Source of the DNA: Paludibacteraceae bacterium
GTDB lineage: Bacteria > Bacteroidota > Bacteroidia > Bacteroidales > Paludibacteraceae
Assembly (NCBI GenBank): GCA_017402895.1
Contig: JAFPLG010000072.1
Coordinates: forward strand, 1 to 17,707
Reading direction: 5' to 3'
DNA length: 17,707 bases
The notes under the pieces are model-generated. The model was not told the DNA's origin. It ran no database searches and was given only the letters and a program-made list of their open reading frames with translations. A program made the translations under genes and the position numbers. Positions 2,713-17,707 of the stretch are shown here, piece by piece; within the stretch, counting starts at the first letter, position 1, and each line of letters opens with the position of its first letter.

Positions 2713-3451
2713 GATAAAACTCCTTGCAGAGTTCGGAATAGGCGGCTGAACGGCCGCCTGTTTCGTTTTCTAAGACGAGTTTGTCCTCTGTGGGCTGAAT
2801 GCTGACGGCTGAAAACTGAAAGAAAAGTAACACCCGCCTTGCCGGCTTCGACTCCTTACTAAATACGCGCGTGACGCGCGTGAGCGACAACCCGGCCTCT
2901 TGAGCAAGCTTTTCTACCTCTTTCTCTACTTCTGCCGGCAGGATAATGGCTAACATGCCCTGCGGTTTGAGTAGTCGTGCGCTGTGTGTGATGAGTTCAG
3001 CGTAACTGAGACTATCGGTGTGCCGCGCCAGTTGCCGTCCGGCATCCGGATTCTTCAGGCTGTTCTGAAAATAGGGAGGGTTGGAGACGACCAGGTCGTA
3101 TTTGTGATTTGTGATTAGTGATTGGTGATTGAGCCAGTCTTGTAGACTGGATTGATAGGCTGAAAGCTGTTGACTGAAGGCTGAAGCCTGAAAATTTTCT
3201 TTCGCTTGTTCTACGGCTGCTTCATCTATGTCGATGGCATCTATTTGGGCTTCCGGAACGCGTTGAGCCATCATCAGAGCGACGAGCCCCGAACCGGTTC
3301 CAATATCTAAAATGGTACATGGTAAATGGTCAAATGGTAAATCAACTGGTGCCCACGCACCAAGCAGTACGCCATCCGTGCCCACTTTCATGGCGCAGCG
3401 GTCGTGACGCACATAGAACTGACGAAATTGAAAACCTTCGGAACCGGCCAT
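2708..3451 (-). CDS. trmN6: TrmN6-like tRNA1(Val) A37 N6-methyltransferase
   Basis: SAM-dependent N6-adenine methyltransferase of the YfiC/TrmN6 family, which modifies A37 of tRNA1(Val) in E. coli. The 247-residue protein has the N-terminal signature FRQFYVRHDRCAMKVGTDGVLLGAW, SAM motif I at residues 48-55 (LDIGTGSG), the acidic DAIDID motif, and the catalytic NPPY at 124-127. The start is the ATG at 3451, 2 bases after the preceding gene; an upstream in-frame extension to 3592 would overlap that gene and has no family similarity. Compared with my memory of the family, extra residues occur exactly where short tandem repeats lie: APVDLPFDHLPCT before motif I, FSQQLSAYQ, NHQSLITN before NPPY, and FQFSAVSIQP near the end. 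A TRV-TRV duplication adds to this. None breaks the frame, so the enzyme is probably functional. Confidence 0.88.
   Translation of the reverse strand: MAGSEGFQFRQFYVRHDRCAMKVGTDGVLLGAWAPVDLPFDHLPCTILDIGTGSGLVALMMAQRVPEAQIDAIDIDEAAVEQAKENFQASAFSQQLSAYQSSLQDWLNHQSLITNHKYDLVVSNPPYFQNSLKNPDAGRQLARHTDSLSYAELITHSARLLKPQGMLAIILPAEVEKEVEKLAQEAGLSLTRVTRVFSKESKPARRVLLFFQFSAVSIQPTEDKLVLENETGGRSAAYSELCKEFYL
2740..2771 (+). terminator. Likely rho-independent terminator of rny
   Basis: Inverted repeat AGGCGGC (2740-2746), loop TGAACG, GCCGCCT (2753-2759), followed by the T-rich stretch GTTTCGTTTTCT on the plus strand. The stem is seven perfect base pairs. It sits inside the 3' end of the convergent trmN6 coding sequence, about 50 bases after the rny stop. 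On the minus strand no T tract follows, so it should act mainly on plus-strand transcripts. Confidence 0.6.
2793..2820. repeat. Heptanucleotide array 2 (4 units) inside trmN6
   Basis: Units on the plus strand: GGCTGAA, TGCTGAC, GGCTGAA, AACTGAA. In trmN6 orientation they read as TTCAGCC-type units. The array is translated as part of the FQFSAVSIQP stretch near the TrmN6 C-terminus. Confidence 0.7.
2865..2882. repeat. 9-bp tandem duplication inside trmN6
   Basis: ACGCGCGTG occurs twice in direct succession (2865-2873 and 2874-2882). It encodes the in-frame duplication TRV-TRV in TrmN6. Confidence 0.7.
3102..3129. repeat. Heptanucleotide array 3 (4 units) inside trmN6
   Basis: Units: TTGTGAT, TTGTGAT, TAGTGAT, TGGTGAT. 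In gene orientation they are AATCACA/T/C units. They encode the NHQSLITN stretch just before the catalytic NPPY region, which looks like an insertion relative to the family. Confidence 0.75.
3158..3192. repeat. Heptanucleotide array 4 (5 units) inside trmN6
   Basis: Units: GGCTGAA, AGCTGTT, GACTGAA, GGCTGAA, GCCTGAA. In gene orientation they read TTCAGCC-like. They encode most of FQASAFSQQLSAYQ between the DAIDID motif and NPPY. The units resemble array 2. Confidence 0.72.
3312..3346. repeat. Heptanucleotide array 5 (about 5 units) inside trmN6
   Basis: Units: ATGGTAC, ATGGTAA, ATGGTCA, AATGGTA, AATCAAC; the last two are slightly out of register. In gene orientation they are TTTACCA/TGACCAT-type. 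They encode the VDLPFDHLPCT stretch before SAM motif I. Confidence 0.68.
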
Positions 3452-9758: not shown

Positions 9759-10949
9759 ATGTATACCGAATTTCAAAAACATCTGCAGCAGACGCTGCAA
9801 GAAATCAAGGACGCAGGGCTCTATAAGAACGAGCGCGTCATCATTACCCCGCAATCGTCGGGTATCCGCGTTGAGGGTGGTCAGGAAGTGATTAACTTCT
9901 GTGCGAACAACTACCTTGGGTTGGCAGACAACCCCGAGCTTATTGAGGCGGCTAAGCAGAAGATGGACGAGCGTGGCTATGGTATGGCTTCGGTGCGCTT
10001 TATCTGCGGCACCCAGGATACCCATAAGCAACTCGAGCGCACGATCTCCGAGTTCTTCGGCACCGAGGATACTATCCTCTATGCTGCCTGCTTCGATGCC
10101 AACGGCGGTTTGTTCGAGCCGCTGCTCACAGCCGACGATGCCATTATCTCCGATGCACTCAACCATGCGTCGATTATTGATGGTGTACGCCTCTGTAAGG
10201 CCGTGCGTTATCGTTATGCCAATGGCGATATGGCCGACCTCGAGGAGCAACTCAAGAAGGCTCAAGCGCAACGTTTCCGTATCATCGCTACCGACGGTGT
10301 CTTCTCGATGGACGGTAACGTATGTCCGCTGGATAAGATATACGAACTGGCGCAGAAATACAACGCCATGGTCATGGTTGATGAGAGCCACTCGGCCGGT
10401 GTTGTTGGCCGTACGGGCCACGGTGTGACCGAACTCTATAACATGCGTGGAAAGGTGGAGATCATCACAGGTACGCTGGGTAAGGCCTTCGGTGGTTCGG
10501 TAGGTGGATTCACTACGGGTAAGAAAGAAATCATCGACCTGCTTCGTCAGCGTAGTCGTCCATATCTCTTCTCCAATTCGATCCCACCGATGATTGCTGC
10601 GGCTGGTCTGAAGACCTTCGAACTGCTGACTCGCTCCAACGAATTGCAAGACCGTCTCCACGAGAATACGGCCTACTTCGTTGAGCGCATGAAGGCTGCC
10701 GGTTTTGATATCAAGCCGACGCAGTCTGCTATCTGTGCCGTGATGCTTTATGATGCACGTCTTAGCCAGGAGTTTGCTGCGGCGCTCCAGGAGGAGGGCA
10801 TCTACGTTACGGGTTTCTATTATCCCGTTGTGCCGCAGGGCCAGGCACGTATTCGTGTCCAGGTTTCCGCAGCCCACACCCGCGAACAGTTAGACAAGTG
10901 CATCGCCGCCTTTACGAAGATTGGCACGAAACTTGCAGTGTTGAAATAA
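9759..10949 (+). CDS. kbl: 2-amino-3-ketobutyrate CoA ligase (glycine C-acetyltransferase)
   Basis: PLP enzyme that splits 2-amino-3-ketobutyrate with CoA into glycine and acetyl-CoA, the second step of threonine breakdown. The 396-residue length equals the usual KBL length. Visible motifs are CANNYLGLADNPE near the N-terminus, YGMASVRFICGTQDTHKQLE, the DESHSAG segment with the PLP-binding aspartate, and the Schiff-base lysine K242 in TGTLGKAFGG. The start ATG 9759 gives the family-like MYTEFQKHLQQTLQEIKDAGLYK. tdh follows after 43 bases, and the order kbl-tdh places both pathway enzymes in one operon. A kbl identity over 8-amino-7-oxononanoate synthase is supported by this neighbour and by the GTQDTHKQLE segment. 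Confidence 0.96.
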   Translation: MYTEFQKHLQQTLQEIKDAGLYKNERVIITPQSSGIRVEGGQEVINFCANNYLGLADNPELIEAAKQKMDERGYGMASVRFICGTQDTHKQLERTISEFFGTEDTILYAACFDANGGLFEPLLTADDAIISDALNHASIIDGVRLCKAVRYRYANGDMADLEEQLKKAQAQRFRIIATDGVFSMDGNVCPLDKIYELAQKYNAMVMVDESHSAGVVGRTGHGVTELYNMRGKVEIITGTLGKAFGGSVGGFTTGKKEIIDLLRQRSRPYLFSNSIPPMIAAAGLKTFELLTRSNELQDRLHENTAYFVERMKAAGFDIKPTQSAICAVMLYDARLSQEFAAALQEEGIYVTGFYYPVVPQGQARIRVQVSAAHTREQLDKCIAAFTKIGTKLAVLK

Positions 10950-10951
10950 AG

Positions 10952-10992
10952 CCTAGGACCATAGTGCCCTAGGACTATAGTATCCTAGAACA
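10952..10992. repeat. 16-bp tandem array between kbl and tdh
   Basis: Three units start at 10952, 10968 and 10984, an exact period of 16: CCTAGGACCATAGTGC, CCTAGGACTATAGTAT, and the partial CCTAGAACA, which runs into the tdh ATG. CCTAGG is itself a palindrome. CTAGGA of unit 2 pairs with TCCTAG spanning units 2 and 3. The array fills the gap and occupies the tdh ribosome-binding region. Confidence 0.75.
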
Positions 10993-15000: not shown

Positions 15001-16017
15001 ATGTCTAACGACAAACGACAAACGACAAACGACCAATGTTCACAGGCCCACCGCAGTGGGTTTGTGAACATTGTCGGTAATCCTAACGTGGGCAAATCCA
15101 CGCTGATGAATGCGCTGGTGGGCGAGCGCCTGTCGATTATCACATCCAAGGCGCAAACTACCCGCCATCGTATCCTCGGCATCGTCAACGGAGATGACTT
15201 CCAAATGGTGTATTCCGATACGCCGGGCGTCCTCTCTCCAAACTATCGGCTCCAGGAACAGATGCTCGAGTTCTCGCGCTCAGCCCTGGTGGATGCCGAC
15301 GTCCTGCTTTATGTCACCGAGCCGCAAGACTCTATCGACCGCAATGCCGATTTTGTCGATAAGGTCAAGCGCATGGCTGCGGCTGGCACCAAAGTCTTTC
15401 TCATTATCAACAAGATAGATCTTACTACCCAGGATACCCTCGAGCGTCTGGTTGACTTCTGGCATGCCCAACTGCCCGAGGCTACGATATTTCCTATCTC
15501 TGCCCAGGAGCGCTTTGGCGTGGCCCAATTGTTCGACGCCATCCGCGAGGCATTGCCCGTCGGACCGCCGTTCTTCCCCAAGGATCAACTGACCGACAAA
15601 CCTGCCCGTTTCTTCGTCAACGAAATCATCCGCGAGAAGATTCTTCTCAACTACGACAAGGAGATTCCGTACTCCGTAGAGGTAGAGGTAGAGTCCTTCA
15701 AAGAAGTAGAAAGAAAAAAGTCTTTTAGTCCGAAGGACGGTCTTTCAGCGGAGCGGTCTTTCAGTGATAACGGTCTTTCAGGCGAAGCCGGTCCATCGCT
15801 GCACATCAGTGCAGTGATATATTGCGAGCGCGACAGCCAGAAGGGTATCATCATCGGTCGTGCCGGCTCTGCTCTCAAACGTGTAGGGTCTATGGCACGC
15901 AAAGACATCGAGGAGTTCTTCCAGCGTCCTGTCTTCCTCGAGCTCTTTGTCAAGGTGGATCGCGATTGGCGCTCCAACCAGAACCGCCTCCGCCACTATG
16001 GCTACGATTTGTCATAA
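15001..16017 (+). CDS. era: GTPase Era with repeat-derived N-terminus and KH-domain insertion
   Basis: Ribosome-assembly GTPase that binds the 3' end of 16S rRNA. The G1 motif is at 26-34 (GNPNVGKST), G3 at 73-76 (DTPG), G4 at 137-140 (NKID), and the KH loop at 285-289 (IGRAG). The 338 residues exceed the roughly 295-300 usual for Era. Two stretches explain this. Residues 3-12 (NDKRQTTNDQ) are encoded by four 7-bp repeats. Residues about 241-264 (from SFSPKD to GEAG) are encoded by four hairpin repeats, inserted between a strand of the KH domain (VEVEVESFK) and the next (LHISAVIYCERDS). ATG 15001 is the only in-frame start before the G1 region; no GTG or TTG serves. The frame is intact, so Era is likely functional. 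It is one base after the M16 gene. Confidence 0.95.
   Translation: MSNDKRQTTNDQCSQAHRSGFVNIVGNPNVGKSTLMNALVGERLSIITSKAQTTRHRILGIVNGDDFQMVYSDTPGVLSPNYRLQEQMLEFSRSALVDADVLLYVTEPQDSIDRNADFVDKVKRMAAAGTKVFLIINKIDLTTQDTLERLVDFWHAQLPEATIFPISAQERFGVAQLFDAIREALPVGPPFFPKDQLTDKPARFFVNEIIREKILLNYDKEIPYSVEVEVESFKEVERKKSFSPKDGLSAERSFSDNGLSGEAGPSLHISAVIYCERDSQKGIIIGRAGSALKRVGSMARKDIEEFFQRPVFLELFVKVDRDWRSNQNRLRHYGYDLS
15007..15034. repeat. Heptanucleotide array 6 (4 units) at the era start
   Basis: AACGACA three times, then AACGACC. The array starts two codons after the era ATG and is translated. Four copies keep the frame; gain or loss of one or two copies would shift it. Confidence 0.85.
15721..15791. repeat. 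Hairpin-repeat array A (4 units) inside era
   Basis: Units start at 15721, 15741, 15757 and 15774 (spacing 20, 16, 17). Each is TCTTTCA (TCTTTTA in unit 1), then a small stem-loop, then GG. The stem-loops are GTCC-GAA-GGAC, GC-GGA-GC, GT-GATA-AC and GGC-GAA-GCC. The shared TCTTTCAG is translated as SFS in units 1 and 3 and as GLS in units 2 and 4, so the repeat exists at the DNA level, not the protein level. Confidence 0.85.
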
Positions 16018-16044
16018 TTACCATTGACCAATCACCAATGACCA
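16017..16044. repeat. Heptanucleotide array 7 (4 units) between era and the hydrolase
   Basis: Units: ATTACCA, TTGACCA, ATCACCA, ATGACCA. It begins at the last base of the era stop and ends 2 bases before the preferred hydrolase start. The last unit contains an alternative in-frame ATG at 16038. Confidence 0.78.
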
Positions 16045-16046
16045 AC

Positions 16047-17126
16047 ATGCGCCGAGCAACGCTCATATTCCTTTTGTTGGCTGCATGCCTCGTCGGCTAT
16101 GCTGCCGATAAGGTCATGGAACGAGCCGTCTCGTATTCCTCTCTTGACCAGAACAATGAGCCTGTCCTCCTCTCCGGTCTGTTGAGCGTGCCGCAGGGAA
16201 AAACGCCCCGAGGCATCATCCTCATTCCGCATTTTACCATCAGTTCCGTAGCCGAGTCGCCCTCCGTTAAGCCGACGGGCGAAGCAAAAGCTTTTCGCGA
16301 GGATTATGTGCTCGTCATGCCCGACTATATCGGCTATGGCGCCACTGCCGATCGCGTCCATCCGTATCTGGCGGGGGAACTGACCGCTCGCAACACCGTA
16401 GATATGCTTCTCTCCGTCCGTCCCATCCTGGACAGTATGGCGCTGGGCATATCGCTGGATAGTATCTATATCGTGGGCTTTTCCCAGGGTGGGGCAGCGG
16501 CCCTCTGGACTCTCCGACTCCTGGAGGAGCAGTATGCCGACCGCATCTATGTCCGTCGCTGTTTCGCAGGAAGTGGGCCCTACGATGTGGCTTCCACGTT
16601 CGACCAGGCGGTCCTCACGAACCATGTAACCTTGCCGCTCACAATTCCGATGCTTATCCTCGGAACGAGCGAAGCCTACGGCTTGAATCTGCAGGTCGAT
16701 TCGCTCTTCACACCGGCTATGGTCCGCTATAATGCCAAGTATGTAGCCTCGAAGCAATACAAGGGAATGCAACTCTTCTTCCGTTTCCCCTGCCGCAAAG
16801 CCACGCATTGGCTGACGCCCTATGGTATGGATAAATCACGACCTGAGACGTCTCGCTTCTATAGTGGCATGCTGCGTTCTAGCTTGGTGCATTATCCAAT
16901 CGACGGCCAGTCATCAGATTCGATCTGTCCGCAATGGACGCCCCGCACACCGGTCTATGTCTTCCATTCCACCCGGGATGATATCGTCTCCTTCCGCAAC
17001 GCCGAACACCTCCGCCGTTGTTACGCGTCCTGCCCCTCTTTCACGTGGGACTTCGGTAACTACGGAGGCCATTACCGTTCGGTGCTCACCTTCTTTCCGC
17101 GTGTAAAGCGCCTTCTCGAGCAGTAA
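16047..17126 (+). CDS. Secreted alpha/beta hydrolase (esterase or lipase-like)
   Basis: A 359-residue serine hydrolase. A signal sequence covers residues 1-20 (MRRATLIFLLLAACLVGYAA). LAAC at 11-14 could also be a lipobox, so it may be periplasmic or a lipoprotein. The nucleophile elbow is GFSQGG with S146. The likely acid is D311 or D312 in STRDD, and the likely histidine is H342 in GGHYRS. MPDYIGYGAT before the elbow resembles secretory lipase and dipeptidyl-peptidase-like hydrolases. Substrate is unknown. ATG 16047 is preferred; ATG 16038 would add MTN and lies within the heptamer array. A longer open frame to 15822 overlaps era and has no family support. It is 29 bases after era and may share its transcript. 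Confidence 0.88.
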   Translation: MRRATLIFLLLAACLVGYAADKVMERAVSYSSLDQNNEPVLLSGLLSVPQGKTPRGIILIPHFTISSVAESPSVKPTGEAKAFREDYVLVMPDYIGYGATADRVHPYLAGELTARNTVDMLLSVRPILDSMALGISLDSIYIVGFSQGGAAALWTLRLLEEQYADRIYVRRCFAGSGPYDVASTFDQAVLTNHVTLPLTIPMLILGTSEAYGLNLQVDSLFTPAMVRYNAKYVASKQYKGMQLFFRFPCRKATHWLTPYGMDKSRPETSRFYSGMLRSSLVHYPIDGQSSDSICPQWTPRTPVYVFHSTRDDIVSFRNAEHLRRCYASCPSFTWDFGNYGGHYRSVLTFFPRVKRLLEQ

Positions 17127-17128
17127 AT

Positions 17129-17156
17129 CTGCCATTTTGTCAGTCATTTTCTGCCA
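17129..17156. promoter_or_regulatory. Inverted-repeat activator site candidate upstream of dnaK
   Basis: CTGCCA-TTT-TGTCAG (17129-17143) is an inverted repeat with 5 of 6 pairs matching. Another CTGCCA lies at 17151-17156. It starts just after the hydrolase stop, about 30-60 bases upstream of the sigma-54-like element. Confidence 0.4.
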
Positions 17157-17186
17157 AAACATACCAATCCTGTGCTAAATTCGATT

Positions 17187-17202
17187 TGGCACGGGATTTG
17201 TC
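17187..17202 (+). promoter_or_regulatory. Sigma-54-like promoter of dnaK
   Basis: TGGCACG, four bases, TTGT matches the -24/-12 sigma-54 consensus TGGCAC-N5-TTGC with correct GG-to-G spacing of 12, apart from T instead of C at -12. No TAnnTTTG element is visible in the gap. Transcription from here would start near 17213 and include the whole hairpin-repeat array in the dnaK leader. Confidence 0.45.
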
Positions 17203-17220
17203 ATATCTAGGGTGACTGAG

Positions 17221-17295
17221 TCTTTCAGCGAAGCGATCTTTCAGTGAACGACAGTGAACGGTCTTTCAGTGAAACGGTCTTTCAGCCGAAGGCGG
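17221..17295. repeat. Hairpin-repeat array B (4 units) in the dnaK leader
   Basis: TCTTTCAG occurs at 17221, 17237, 17262 and 17278. Stem-loops after TCTTTCA are GC-GAA-GC, GT-GA-AC, GT-GAA-AC and GCC-GAA-GGC. Unit 2 is followed by an extra partial copy (CAGTGAACGG). Same family as the array in era, but noncoding here. Apart from these repeats, the candidate promoter sites and an A/T-rich stretch before the ATG, the gap 17127-17333 holds nothing I recognise. Confidence 0.85.
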
Positions 17296-17333
17296 TCATA
17301 AATTTGATTGTTAAATAAAATTTATATACAACT

Positions 17334-17707
17334 ATGTCTAAGATTATTGGAATTGATTTAGGAACTACGAACTCCTGCGTTGCTGTTATGGAAGGCAACG
17401 AACCTATTGTGATTGCCAACTCGGAAGGCAAGCGTACTACGCCTTCTGTTGTCGGTTTTGTAGAGGGCGGTGAGCGTAAGGTAGGTGATCCGGCTAAGCG
17501 TCAGGCTATTACCAACCCGACCAAGACCGTCTATTCGATCAAGCGCTTTATGGGTGAGACCTACGATCGTCTCCAGAAGGAGATCGAGCGCGTTCCGTAT
17601 AAAGTAGCTAAGGGCGACAACAACACCCCGCGTGTTGATATCGACGGACGTCTCTATACCCCGCATGAGATCTCGGCTATCATCCTCCAGAAGATGAAGA
17701 AGACCGC
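17334..17707 (+). CDS. dnaK: Chaperone DnaK (Hsp70), N-terminal part
   Basis: The gene runs off the right edge; about 124 codons are visible. The N-terminus is the diagnostic Hsp70 ATPase start: [21 protein letters not shown] with phosphate loop DLGTTNS. It continues with [33 protein letters not shown] and [16 protein letters not shown]. This is cytoplasmic DnaK, which folds and refolds proteins with DnaJ and GrpE. ATG 17334 matches the family start exactly and follows an A/T-rich leader. It lies 207 bases after the hydrolase stop with its own candidate promoter, so it is probably a separate, stress-regulated unit. Confidence 0.97.

Follow-up and report, generated by a model that had tools for sequence, protein, structure and literature searches.

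A stretch of 17,707 nucleotides from a Paludibacteraceae bacterium (contig JAFPLG010000072.1 of assembly GCA_017402895.1, the whole of which is called the window here) carries two short arrays of very small hairpins, one within the era coding sequence and the other in the leader of dnaK. These arrays probably represent a genus-restricted family of interspersed, shape-conserved DNA micro-hairpin repeats. Units of this family retain their pairing, with G.A mismatches in constant positions, even as the letters of the stem vary. Close alleles of array-bearing genes differ at the protein level, in ispG by a segment consistent with whole units and in era by presence or absence of the whole array. 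The genome to which the window belongs, as contig C174, is incomplete (1.25 Mb at 59% completeness).

A unit is composed of CA, a stem of 2-6 bp, a loop, the complementary stem arm and GGTC, usually followed by a variable 3-nt spacer that leads to the next CA. Units are arranged head to tail and measure about 16-25 nt; as their lengths vary, an array is not a simple tandem repeat. The spacer is TTT in the window, whereas CTT, TTA, ATT, ATA, TAA, GGA, AGA, GTT and others are found elsewhere. An earlier reading made from the letters alone (the sequence-only reading) had reported eight self-complementary units, four in era and four before dnaK, and all eight were found where it had placed them, with stems that pair as claimed. 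Its spacing of mostly 16-17 nt holds in general, with two exceptions (start-to-start distances of 20, 16 and 17 in era and of 16, 25 and 16 before dnaK). The loops it called GAA type are GAA only in part, one being GATA and one GGA, and thus the loop class is better written GNA/GNNA. The stem it gave as GT/AC does have those pairs, but is not bare, as it holds a GA/GA mismatch (unit 6). Both arrays were detected by Tandem Repeats Finder and by a repeat finder, and the window holds 25 copies of TCTTTCAG when up to one mismatch is allowed, versus 12.8 expected; none of 200 shuffles gave as many.

Table 1 The two hairpin arrays, their units and the adjoining features of the window
Feature	Position	Strand	Composition or basis
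era array, four units	15721-15793	+	cores GTCCGAAGGAC, GCGGAGC, GTGATAAC, GGCGAAGCC
unit 1	15721..15742	+	TCTTTTA + GTCC-GAA-GGAC (15728-15738) + GGTC
unit 2	15743..15758	+	TTTCA + GC-GGA-GC (15748-15754) + GGTC
unit 3	15759..15775	+	TTTCA + GT-GATA-AC (15764-15771) + GGTC
unit 4	15776..15793	+	TTTCA + GGC-GAA-GCC (15781-15789) + GGTC
dnaK leader array, four units	17221-17297	+	cores GCGAAGC, GTGAACGACAGTGAAC, GTGAAAC, GCCGAAGGC
unit 5	17221..17238	+	TCTTTCA + GC-GAA-GC (17228-17234) + GATC
unit 6, GA/GA mismatch class	17239..17263	+	TTTCA + GT-GA-AC-GACA-GT-GA-AC (17244-17259) + GGTC
unit 7	17264..17279	+	TTTCA + GT-GAA-AC (17269-17275) + GGTC
unit 8	17280..17297	+	TTTCA + GCC-GAA-GGC (17285-17293) + GGTC
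era, 338 aa, first array an in-frame insert	15001..16017	+	allele and structure comparison
TTTGGCACGGGATTTGTC, conserved motif 5' of the array, shared by related dnaK leaders	17185..17202	+	
dnaK start, open at window end, 3' of the second array	17334..17705	+	

Covariation was assayed on 284 units picked by their flanks, and thus including chance matches, from fetched stretches of genomes G160 (27 stretches), G046 (40) and G000 (9 plus the window). A looser detector that allowed cores up to 34 nt pulled in unrelated gene motifs and was replaced by a stricter one. Pairing partners were shuffled 500 times, with relatedness among units left uncorrected. Among the 49 units with a core of 11 nt (28 of them distinct), Watson-Crick pairing was seen at frequencies of 0.96 and 0.98 for pairs 2 and 3 versus 0.46 and 0.48 in the shuffled sets, and at core length 7 (96 units) pair 2 gave 0.94 versus 0.75; no shuffle was as high in either case (0/500), nor for pair 2 of length 9 or pairs 1, 2 and 5 of length 15. 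Weaker covariation was seen at pair 2 of lengths 8 (4/500) and 10 (6/500). The other pairs of length 10 and the units of length 16 (6 units, mostly chance matches) gave no covariation signal, and lengths 12 and 13 had too few units. Self-complementarity is also above chance when no pairing filter is applied: 53 of 62 units having the full linker on both sides are perfect (50 Watson-Crick and 3 with GA/GA as the only departure), the other nine being five with one mismatch, two with more than one and two of lengths not scored. These data support the earlier claim that the stems covary while pairing is retained, and mismatches do not occur at the level predicted by chance.

The loops of fully paired units are restricted in sequence. 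Triloops are GNA in 137 of 179 cases (GAA 68, GCA 33, GTA 29, GGA 7), with AAA (14), ATA (6) and others making up the remainder, and tetraloops are GNNA in 33 of 38 (GTCA 13, GATA 8, GTTA 5 and others). GNRA, the RNA-type tetraloop, accounts for only 4 of the 33 GNNA loops. Of the 32 units with a core of 15 nt, 24 have the GA/GA mismatch at pairs 3 and 4, and the pairs flanking it covary on both sides; two units are fully Watson-Crick. Tandem GA steps are stable in both DNA and RNA. GA opposite TC was seen in none of the 32 units of the fetched data; GA/TC forms are present in the pattern-match lists of genomes G044 and G110.

These mismatches bear on whether the hairpins could be products of palindrome-generating replication errors, in which template switching at quasi-palindromes makes or corrects hairpins without selection. 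The very varied stems, the scarcity of one-mismatch intermediates (5/62) and the small amount of array-to-array copying in G160 are consistent with such errors. However, correction of one arm by the other should yield GA/TC, whereas the long units keep GA/GA, and the loops are mostly GNA/GNNA. The suggestion of the sequence-only reading that the copying process creates the hairpin is therefore disfavored, because arm-to-arm copying would erase the conserved G.A mismatches of the GNA loops and GA/GA stems, and we consider replication errors an unlikely source of the family.

The loop and stem class of the genomic units is that of the d(GCGAAGC) family of DNA mini-hairpins. According to the available part of PMC4686876, a DNA mini-hairpin is "extraordinarily stable" and nuclease-resistant when its loop is GNA or GNNA and its stem has at least two G-C pairs, and GCGAAGC has a melting temperature of 78 C. 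A GNA or GNNA loop was found in 170 of the 217 fully paired units, whereas a minority have A-T pairs in the stem (GTGAAAC) or other loops. Such hairpins are known as oligonucleotides from the portion of that paper at hand, and a genomic repeat family made of them was not found in the literature searched.

Further copies are present elsewhere in the same genome and across the genus, indicating that the units are dispersed in the manner of interspersed palindromic repeats, with many copies per genome. A loose pattern (TTCAGN{1,8}GAAN{1,8}GGTC) has 22 matches in the window's own genome versus 9 for the reversed control; paired hairpins lie on contigs C63, C126, C144, C174 and C181, near-paired ones on C36, C70, C88 and C161, and GTCCGTAGGAC is present on C180. 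Rumen and gut samples are the source of the relatives, whose records are named Paludibacteraceae or Bacteroidales. The pattern TCTTTCAGN{3,20}CGGTC matches 168 of 178 genomes of the genus, often with just 1-4 matches, which is near chance. The richest genomes are G046 (103), G160 (100), G105 (69), G202 (57), G052 (51), G024 (44) and G044 (41), and the reversed control gave 0-2 matches in each of these seven. The maximum under this strict pattern is thus 103 copies in a genome of ~2 Mb. When era loci were searched alone, further paired units were found only in locus L077, few above chance.

Over the order Bacteroidales, GGTCTTTCAGN{4,16}CGGTC matches 40 of 393 sampled genomes. Among the 39 matches listed from outside the genus, 12 have at least two Watson-Crick pairs, about the quarter expected by chance given that the pattern itself fixes the first pair; two show four or five pairs, and GNA/GNNA loop closure was seen in none of the 39. 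Within the genus, 9 of 10 matches of the same order-wide sample have at least two pairs. The three sampled genomes from other genera of the Paludibacteraceae gave 1, 0 and 0 matches. Judged from these sequence searches, the hairpin family is confined to one Paludibacteraceae genus at the pattern sensitivity used, at which relatives with another linker would escape. The proposed small interspersed palindrome, with a variable number of tandem units and copies in both coding and leader DNA, is supported.

Two genes allowed arrays to be compared between alleles. Era protein P0002 (311 aa) matches P0001, a 338-aa protein nearly the same as the window's Era, at every residue outside the insert stretch, and the best solved Era structure (9jkp_B) aligns with residues 16-233 and 263-335 of the query, leaving 3 residues in the structure versus 29 in the query between the two segments. 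The corresponding loop in 80 related loci is short (SFKEEDKLIRIS-like) in 58, 7 residues longer in 11 distant loci and of other lengths in 11. These last include hairpin units (L079, L082), in-frame heptamer-like repeats (L080, L081, L096, L120) and a 15-nt repeat (L138). Proteins P0003 and P0004 have the window's insert unchanged, yet are only 89% identical overall to the window's Era, which suggests that the insert stretch was exchanged between species. Heptanucleotide tandem repeats also occur in the window at the start and end of era (15007-15033 and 16016-16045) and at 3100-3130 and 3310-3342.

The IspG proteins of G160 and G052 (89% identity) have a common four-unit array that is in frame in both, and the stems of units 3 and 4 differ in sequence and length between the two genomes. 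IspG P0123 differs from P0121 by one residue plus a 12-residue gap, the latter consistent with loss of the 36 nt that make up units 2 and 3 in the G160 DNA. In other genomes the IspG loop holds 9-nt repeats (G158 and G153; L237 and L238), and further alleles have low-complexity stretches there. In-frame insertion thus occurs in unrelated protein genes, as seen by allele comparison for era and ispG and by open frame for the others. Ribosomal bypassing (byp-like) of the arrays is disfavored, since open frames run through the genic arrays and the ispG alleles differ by precisely 12 codons, although the open-frame evidence is weak because genic arrays were located through open frames.

To describe placement, genes were called by open frame length only; the names leuS, ileS, pheT and dsbD were given by eye from conserved stretches, and Era and IspG were named by their source records. 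Array clusters were built from the 245 of 284 units that had at least two outer pairs or both linkers, and were left uncleaned so that a few chance matches remain (for example L199:9915, L206:1654, L270:6787 and L270:9117). The G160 arrays are 26 genic sense, 6 genic antisense, 8 intergenic and 3 gene-edge, those of G046 are 6, 6, 44 and 17, and those of G000 are 4, 0, 4 and 0, respectively; placement differs strongly between G160 and G046 (p about 6e-10). Arrays that share 30-mers make up 4 of 43 clusters in G160 (2 pairs versus 1 pair in control windows) and 28 of 73 in G046 (32 pairs versus 5).

Genic arrays are sense in 36 cases versus 12 antisense (p = 0.0007), an excess driven by G160 (26:6) and G000 (4:0). 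Units such as GGTCTTTCAGCGAAGC have no stop in any frame, GTGAAAC units hold TGA, and the complement holds CTGAAAG. The sense excess is probably owing to reading, stop-free units being tolerated where CTGAAAG in the complement is not. The mostly sense orientation in G160 would also be expected if selection acted on the encoded peptides, with GLSAERS-like loops explaining the repeats. This we consider highly improbable, since by eye the genic units are read in all three frames, units are also found in antisense orientation and in intergenic DNA, and in other species these Era and IspG loops are occupied by unrelated repeats.

The dnaK leader is a special site. Of 60 related leaders compared (window 17203-17320; loci L077-L128 and L305-L333), 47 were left after removal of repeats, and by eye nearly all of these have a short self-complementary tandem array between the conserved upstream motif TTTGGCACGGGATTTGTC, which we take by eye to be a candidate sigma-54-like element, and the start codon. 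The exceptions are L150, which is unstructured, and L097 and L322, which are weak. The arrays are unrelated in sequence across species: by simple pattern rules 8 are of the hairpin type, 25 are CTAG arrays and 14 are other repeats (TCGATAT, TCCGGA and GACGACAT are examples), with the degraded hairpin leader L118 (same as L312) counted among the latter. As leaders fill the same place with unrelated arrays, the dnaK copy cannot simply be read as a random instance of the landing that the sequence-only reading had envisaged, although an array does lie in the leader.

Compared with G111, whose dnaK DNA is 93% identical, the window's GC-GAA-GC (unit 5) corresponds to AC-GAA-GT, with both arms changed, and its last unit, GCC-GAA-GGC, to GC-GAA-GC. 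On a tree built from 372 nt of dnaK, the hairpin type requires 8 changes for its 8 rows (shuffled mean 7.6), which indicates that it was gained or lost repeatedly; at least 4 of the changes are forced by well supported branches. Mean folding z scores of the hairpin, CTAG and other leaders were -1.5 (9 leaders), -2.7 (23) and -2.1 (14) as RNA versus -0.5, -2.0 and -1.6 as DNA. Leader structure may therefore be what counts at dnaK, whichever repeat provides it, the RNA numbers being the stronger. A similar layout is seen in the kbl-tdh gap (window 10921-10990), where TTGGCACGAAACTTGCA, presumably another sigma-54-like candidate by eye, precedes a CCTAGG array that lies ahead of the tdh start.

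The leader arrays and their lower z scores as RNA raise the possibility of an RNA-level function, in which transcribed hairpins would act in mRNA as leader structure, in 3' end protection or as neighbors of terminators. The gene ends of G046 are in keeping with this, as many arrays there begin directly 3' of stop codons, and palindromic cores (GACTGATATA...AAATCAGTC) or T-run terminator-like forms lie between oppositely oriented arrays (L264-L303, both by eye). In contrast, where intergenic arrays have codirectional neighbors, 31 are antisense and only 10 sense in the three genomes (8 more lie between convergent and 4 between divergent genes, the rest being unclassified). The loops of such antisense arrays would become UNC/UNNC in those transcripts. 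Nevertheless, GNA and GNNA loops make up 27 of 36 scored units antisense to codirectional neighbors and 7 of 9 sense units in G046, and 6 of 7 and 8 of 10, respectively, in G160, after units with unpaired stems were dropped (3, 0, 2 and 1). That the loop rule is independent of orientation speaks for DNA over one transcript strand. Together with the rarity of GNRA among the tetraloops and the location of most G160 arrays within coding sequence, this makes RNA function a rather poor candidate to explain the family as a whole.

A classical non-autonomous element, such as a miniature inverted-repeat transposable element or a repetitive extragenic palindromic (REP) sequence, could have been moved by a known transposase such as a REP-associated tyrosine transposase (RAYT). 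The units resemble REPs in size and location, and G046 has tandem and inverted pairs. However, Y1_Tnp (PF01797) scored above cut-off in 48 of 178 genomes, but of the seven genomes richest in units only G044 is one of these; the match in G105 is sub-threshold, and no match was found in G046, G160, G202, G052 or G024, all incomplete genomes (G160 is 98%, G024 94% and G046 90% complete). A RAYT mover is thus disfavored for most high-copy genomes. So is a reverse transcriptase, as RVT_1 was detected in 35 of the 178 genomes and, among the seven, only in G202. Moreover, neither GTAG nor CGTC tags were seen, and we judge this explanation decidedly unlikely.

No match to the era array was found in 50,697 phage records, nor to the dnaK array in 72,556 plasmid records (blastn, E 0.01, one phage and one plasmid collection). 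When viral contigs were scanned for exact copies of TCTTTCAGCGNAGCGGTC, three were hit, two of them by what seems on inspection by eye to be a single chance match. The third (IMGVR_UViG_2703719087_000001, a 37.5-kb contig of the viral collection) has two units behind an apparent gene end (L233:322-369).

The nearest known systems share some traits with the hairpin family. Rickettsia palindromic elements (RPEs), with which the sequence-only reading had compared the arrays, are described in the accessible text of PMC10969869 as palindromic repeats of about 150 bp in several families, each encoding a conserved peptide, inserted in frame in many unrelated protein genes and elsewhere. The genic in-frame arrays are alike in this, but a unit has only about 16-25 nt, a free stem and all frames read, and hence the comparison stands for in-frame genic palindromes and fails for size and conserved peptide. 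The CGTC REPs, which include RPE-4 and RPE-6, are short palindromes with intragenic copies and no associated transposase that occur in some Bacteroidetes; as far as PMC3733652 was available, they carry the tag CGTC, stems of 8-9 bp whose first two pairs hold A/T residues, loops of 4-5 nt and short tails that are mostly CCA, and form mostly head-to-head dimers, clusters being rare. The units described here have instead GGTC after the hairpin, stems of 2-6 bp that mostly begin with G-C and GNA/GNNA loops, and tandem clusters are common; the CGTC tag, the A/T-starting 8-9 bp stem and the CCA tail are all lacking.

GTAG REPs and the bacterial interspersed mosaic elements they build, which are associated with RAYTs, are likewise extragenic palindromes near gene ends, and their inverted pairs around a core resemble the inverted G046 arrays around a palindromic core. 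The hairpin units, however, have CA and GGTC (the anchors used for the larger sets) rather than a tag at the hairpin foot, and a cognate Y1 transposase was not found in 5 of the 7 highest-copy genomes, which are incomplete. The repetitive hairpin elements of sponge mitochondria are also small, dispersed and located in spacers and variable gene regions, but their genomes are unrelated, and the part of PMC2800124 at hand mentions neither a GNA/GNNA loop rule nor fixed linkers.

Apart from one tRNA, six sequence sources gave no Rfam match, the available portion of PMC12306157 does not describe this hairpin family, and a family of this form was not found in the literature searched (open-license full texts, mostly without subscription papers). 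The earlier statement that no described family has this form agrees with these searches. By the tests made, the hairpin family works like RPEs and transposase-less REP repeats and is a member of neither, and conservation of shape only looks new relative to known palindromic repeats.

Several results weigh against reading the arrays as a family of DNA hairpins. ViennaRNA predicts no fold for the shortest units (for example CAGCGAAGCGG) with either the DNA or the RNA parameter set; folding energy is therefore unusable as proof for these units, and the stability claim relies on the published melting data. In a set of 94 distinct units, the strand as written is only slightly more stable than its complement (DNA mean -1.75 vs -1.44 kcal/mol), and as DNA the nine hairpin-type leaders hardly beat their shuffles, in contrast to their score as RNA. 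The units may indeed have an RNA role, above all at the dnaK leader. CA and GGTC are the detector anchors, and thus their constancy is partly built in. The genic orientation in G046 is 6:6, so that a coding filter is not visible there, and since the G160 arrays share almost no 30-mers, whole-array copying is not seen in that genome. The era and ispG alleles were compared at the protein and not the DNA level, and residues adjoining the Era insert also differ between P0001 and P0002; the insert difference could therefore be a segment exchange. These comparisons, which offered no DNA-level empty site, revealed no cleanly empty site bearing a target duplication, and searches for the Y1_Tnp and RVT_1 families in the 178 genomes identified no mover.

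In the family of DNA micro-hairpins that we favor, the feature kept would be a shape of single-stranded DNA, the very stable mini-hairpin. Units would be gained and lost by slippage or by recombination between the alike linkers, and within genes only frame-preserving insertions would survive, to be translated as extra loops. Spread to new sites may proceed via a single-stranded DNA intermediate, through either a hairpin-recognizing enzyme or template switching during replication, and this is the weakest step of the scheme. More tentatively, and with less than even odds in our estimation, the hairpin could be a shape-defined self-propagating element: a single-stranded DNA process, whether an enzyme or the replication fork, would recognize a mini-hairpin with a GNA/GNNA loop that is flanked by CA and GGTC. 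Stems could then drift through compensatory changes while the G.A mismatches are retained, and the element would spread even to essential genes, where it would be translated as loops.

As far as the literature was searched, this is the first natural genomic family of the unusually stable mini-hairpins studied by chemists. Intragenic palindromes of bacteria are otherwise known from Rickettsia and certain REP families, and their upkeep and movement call for explanation, above all where a transposase is lacking. With up to about 100 copies in a small genome, a nearly free stem and a G.A-rich geometry that is kept, the family offers a direct test of single-stranded DNA shape as the unit of selection or spread. 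Folding programs that use standard energies will overlook such elements.

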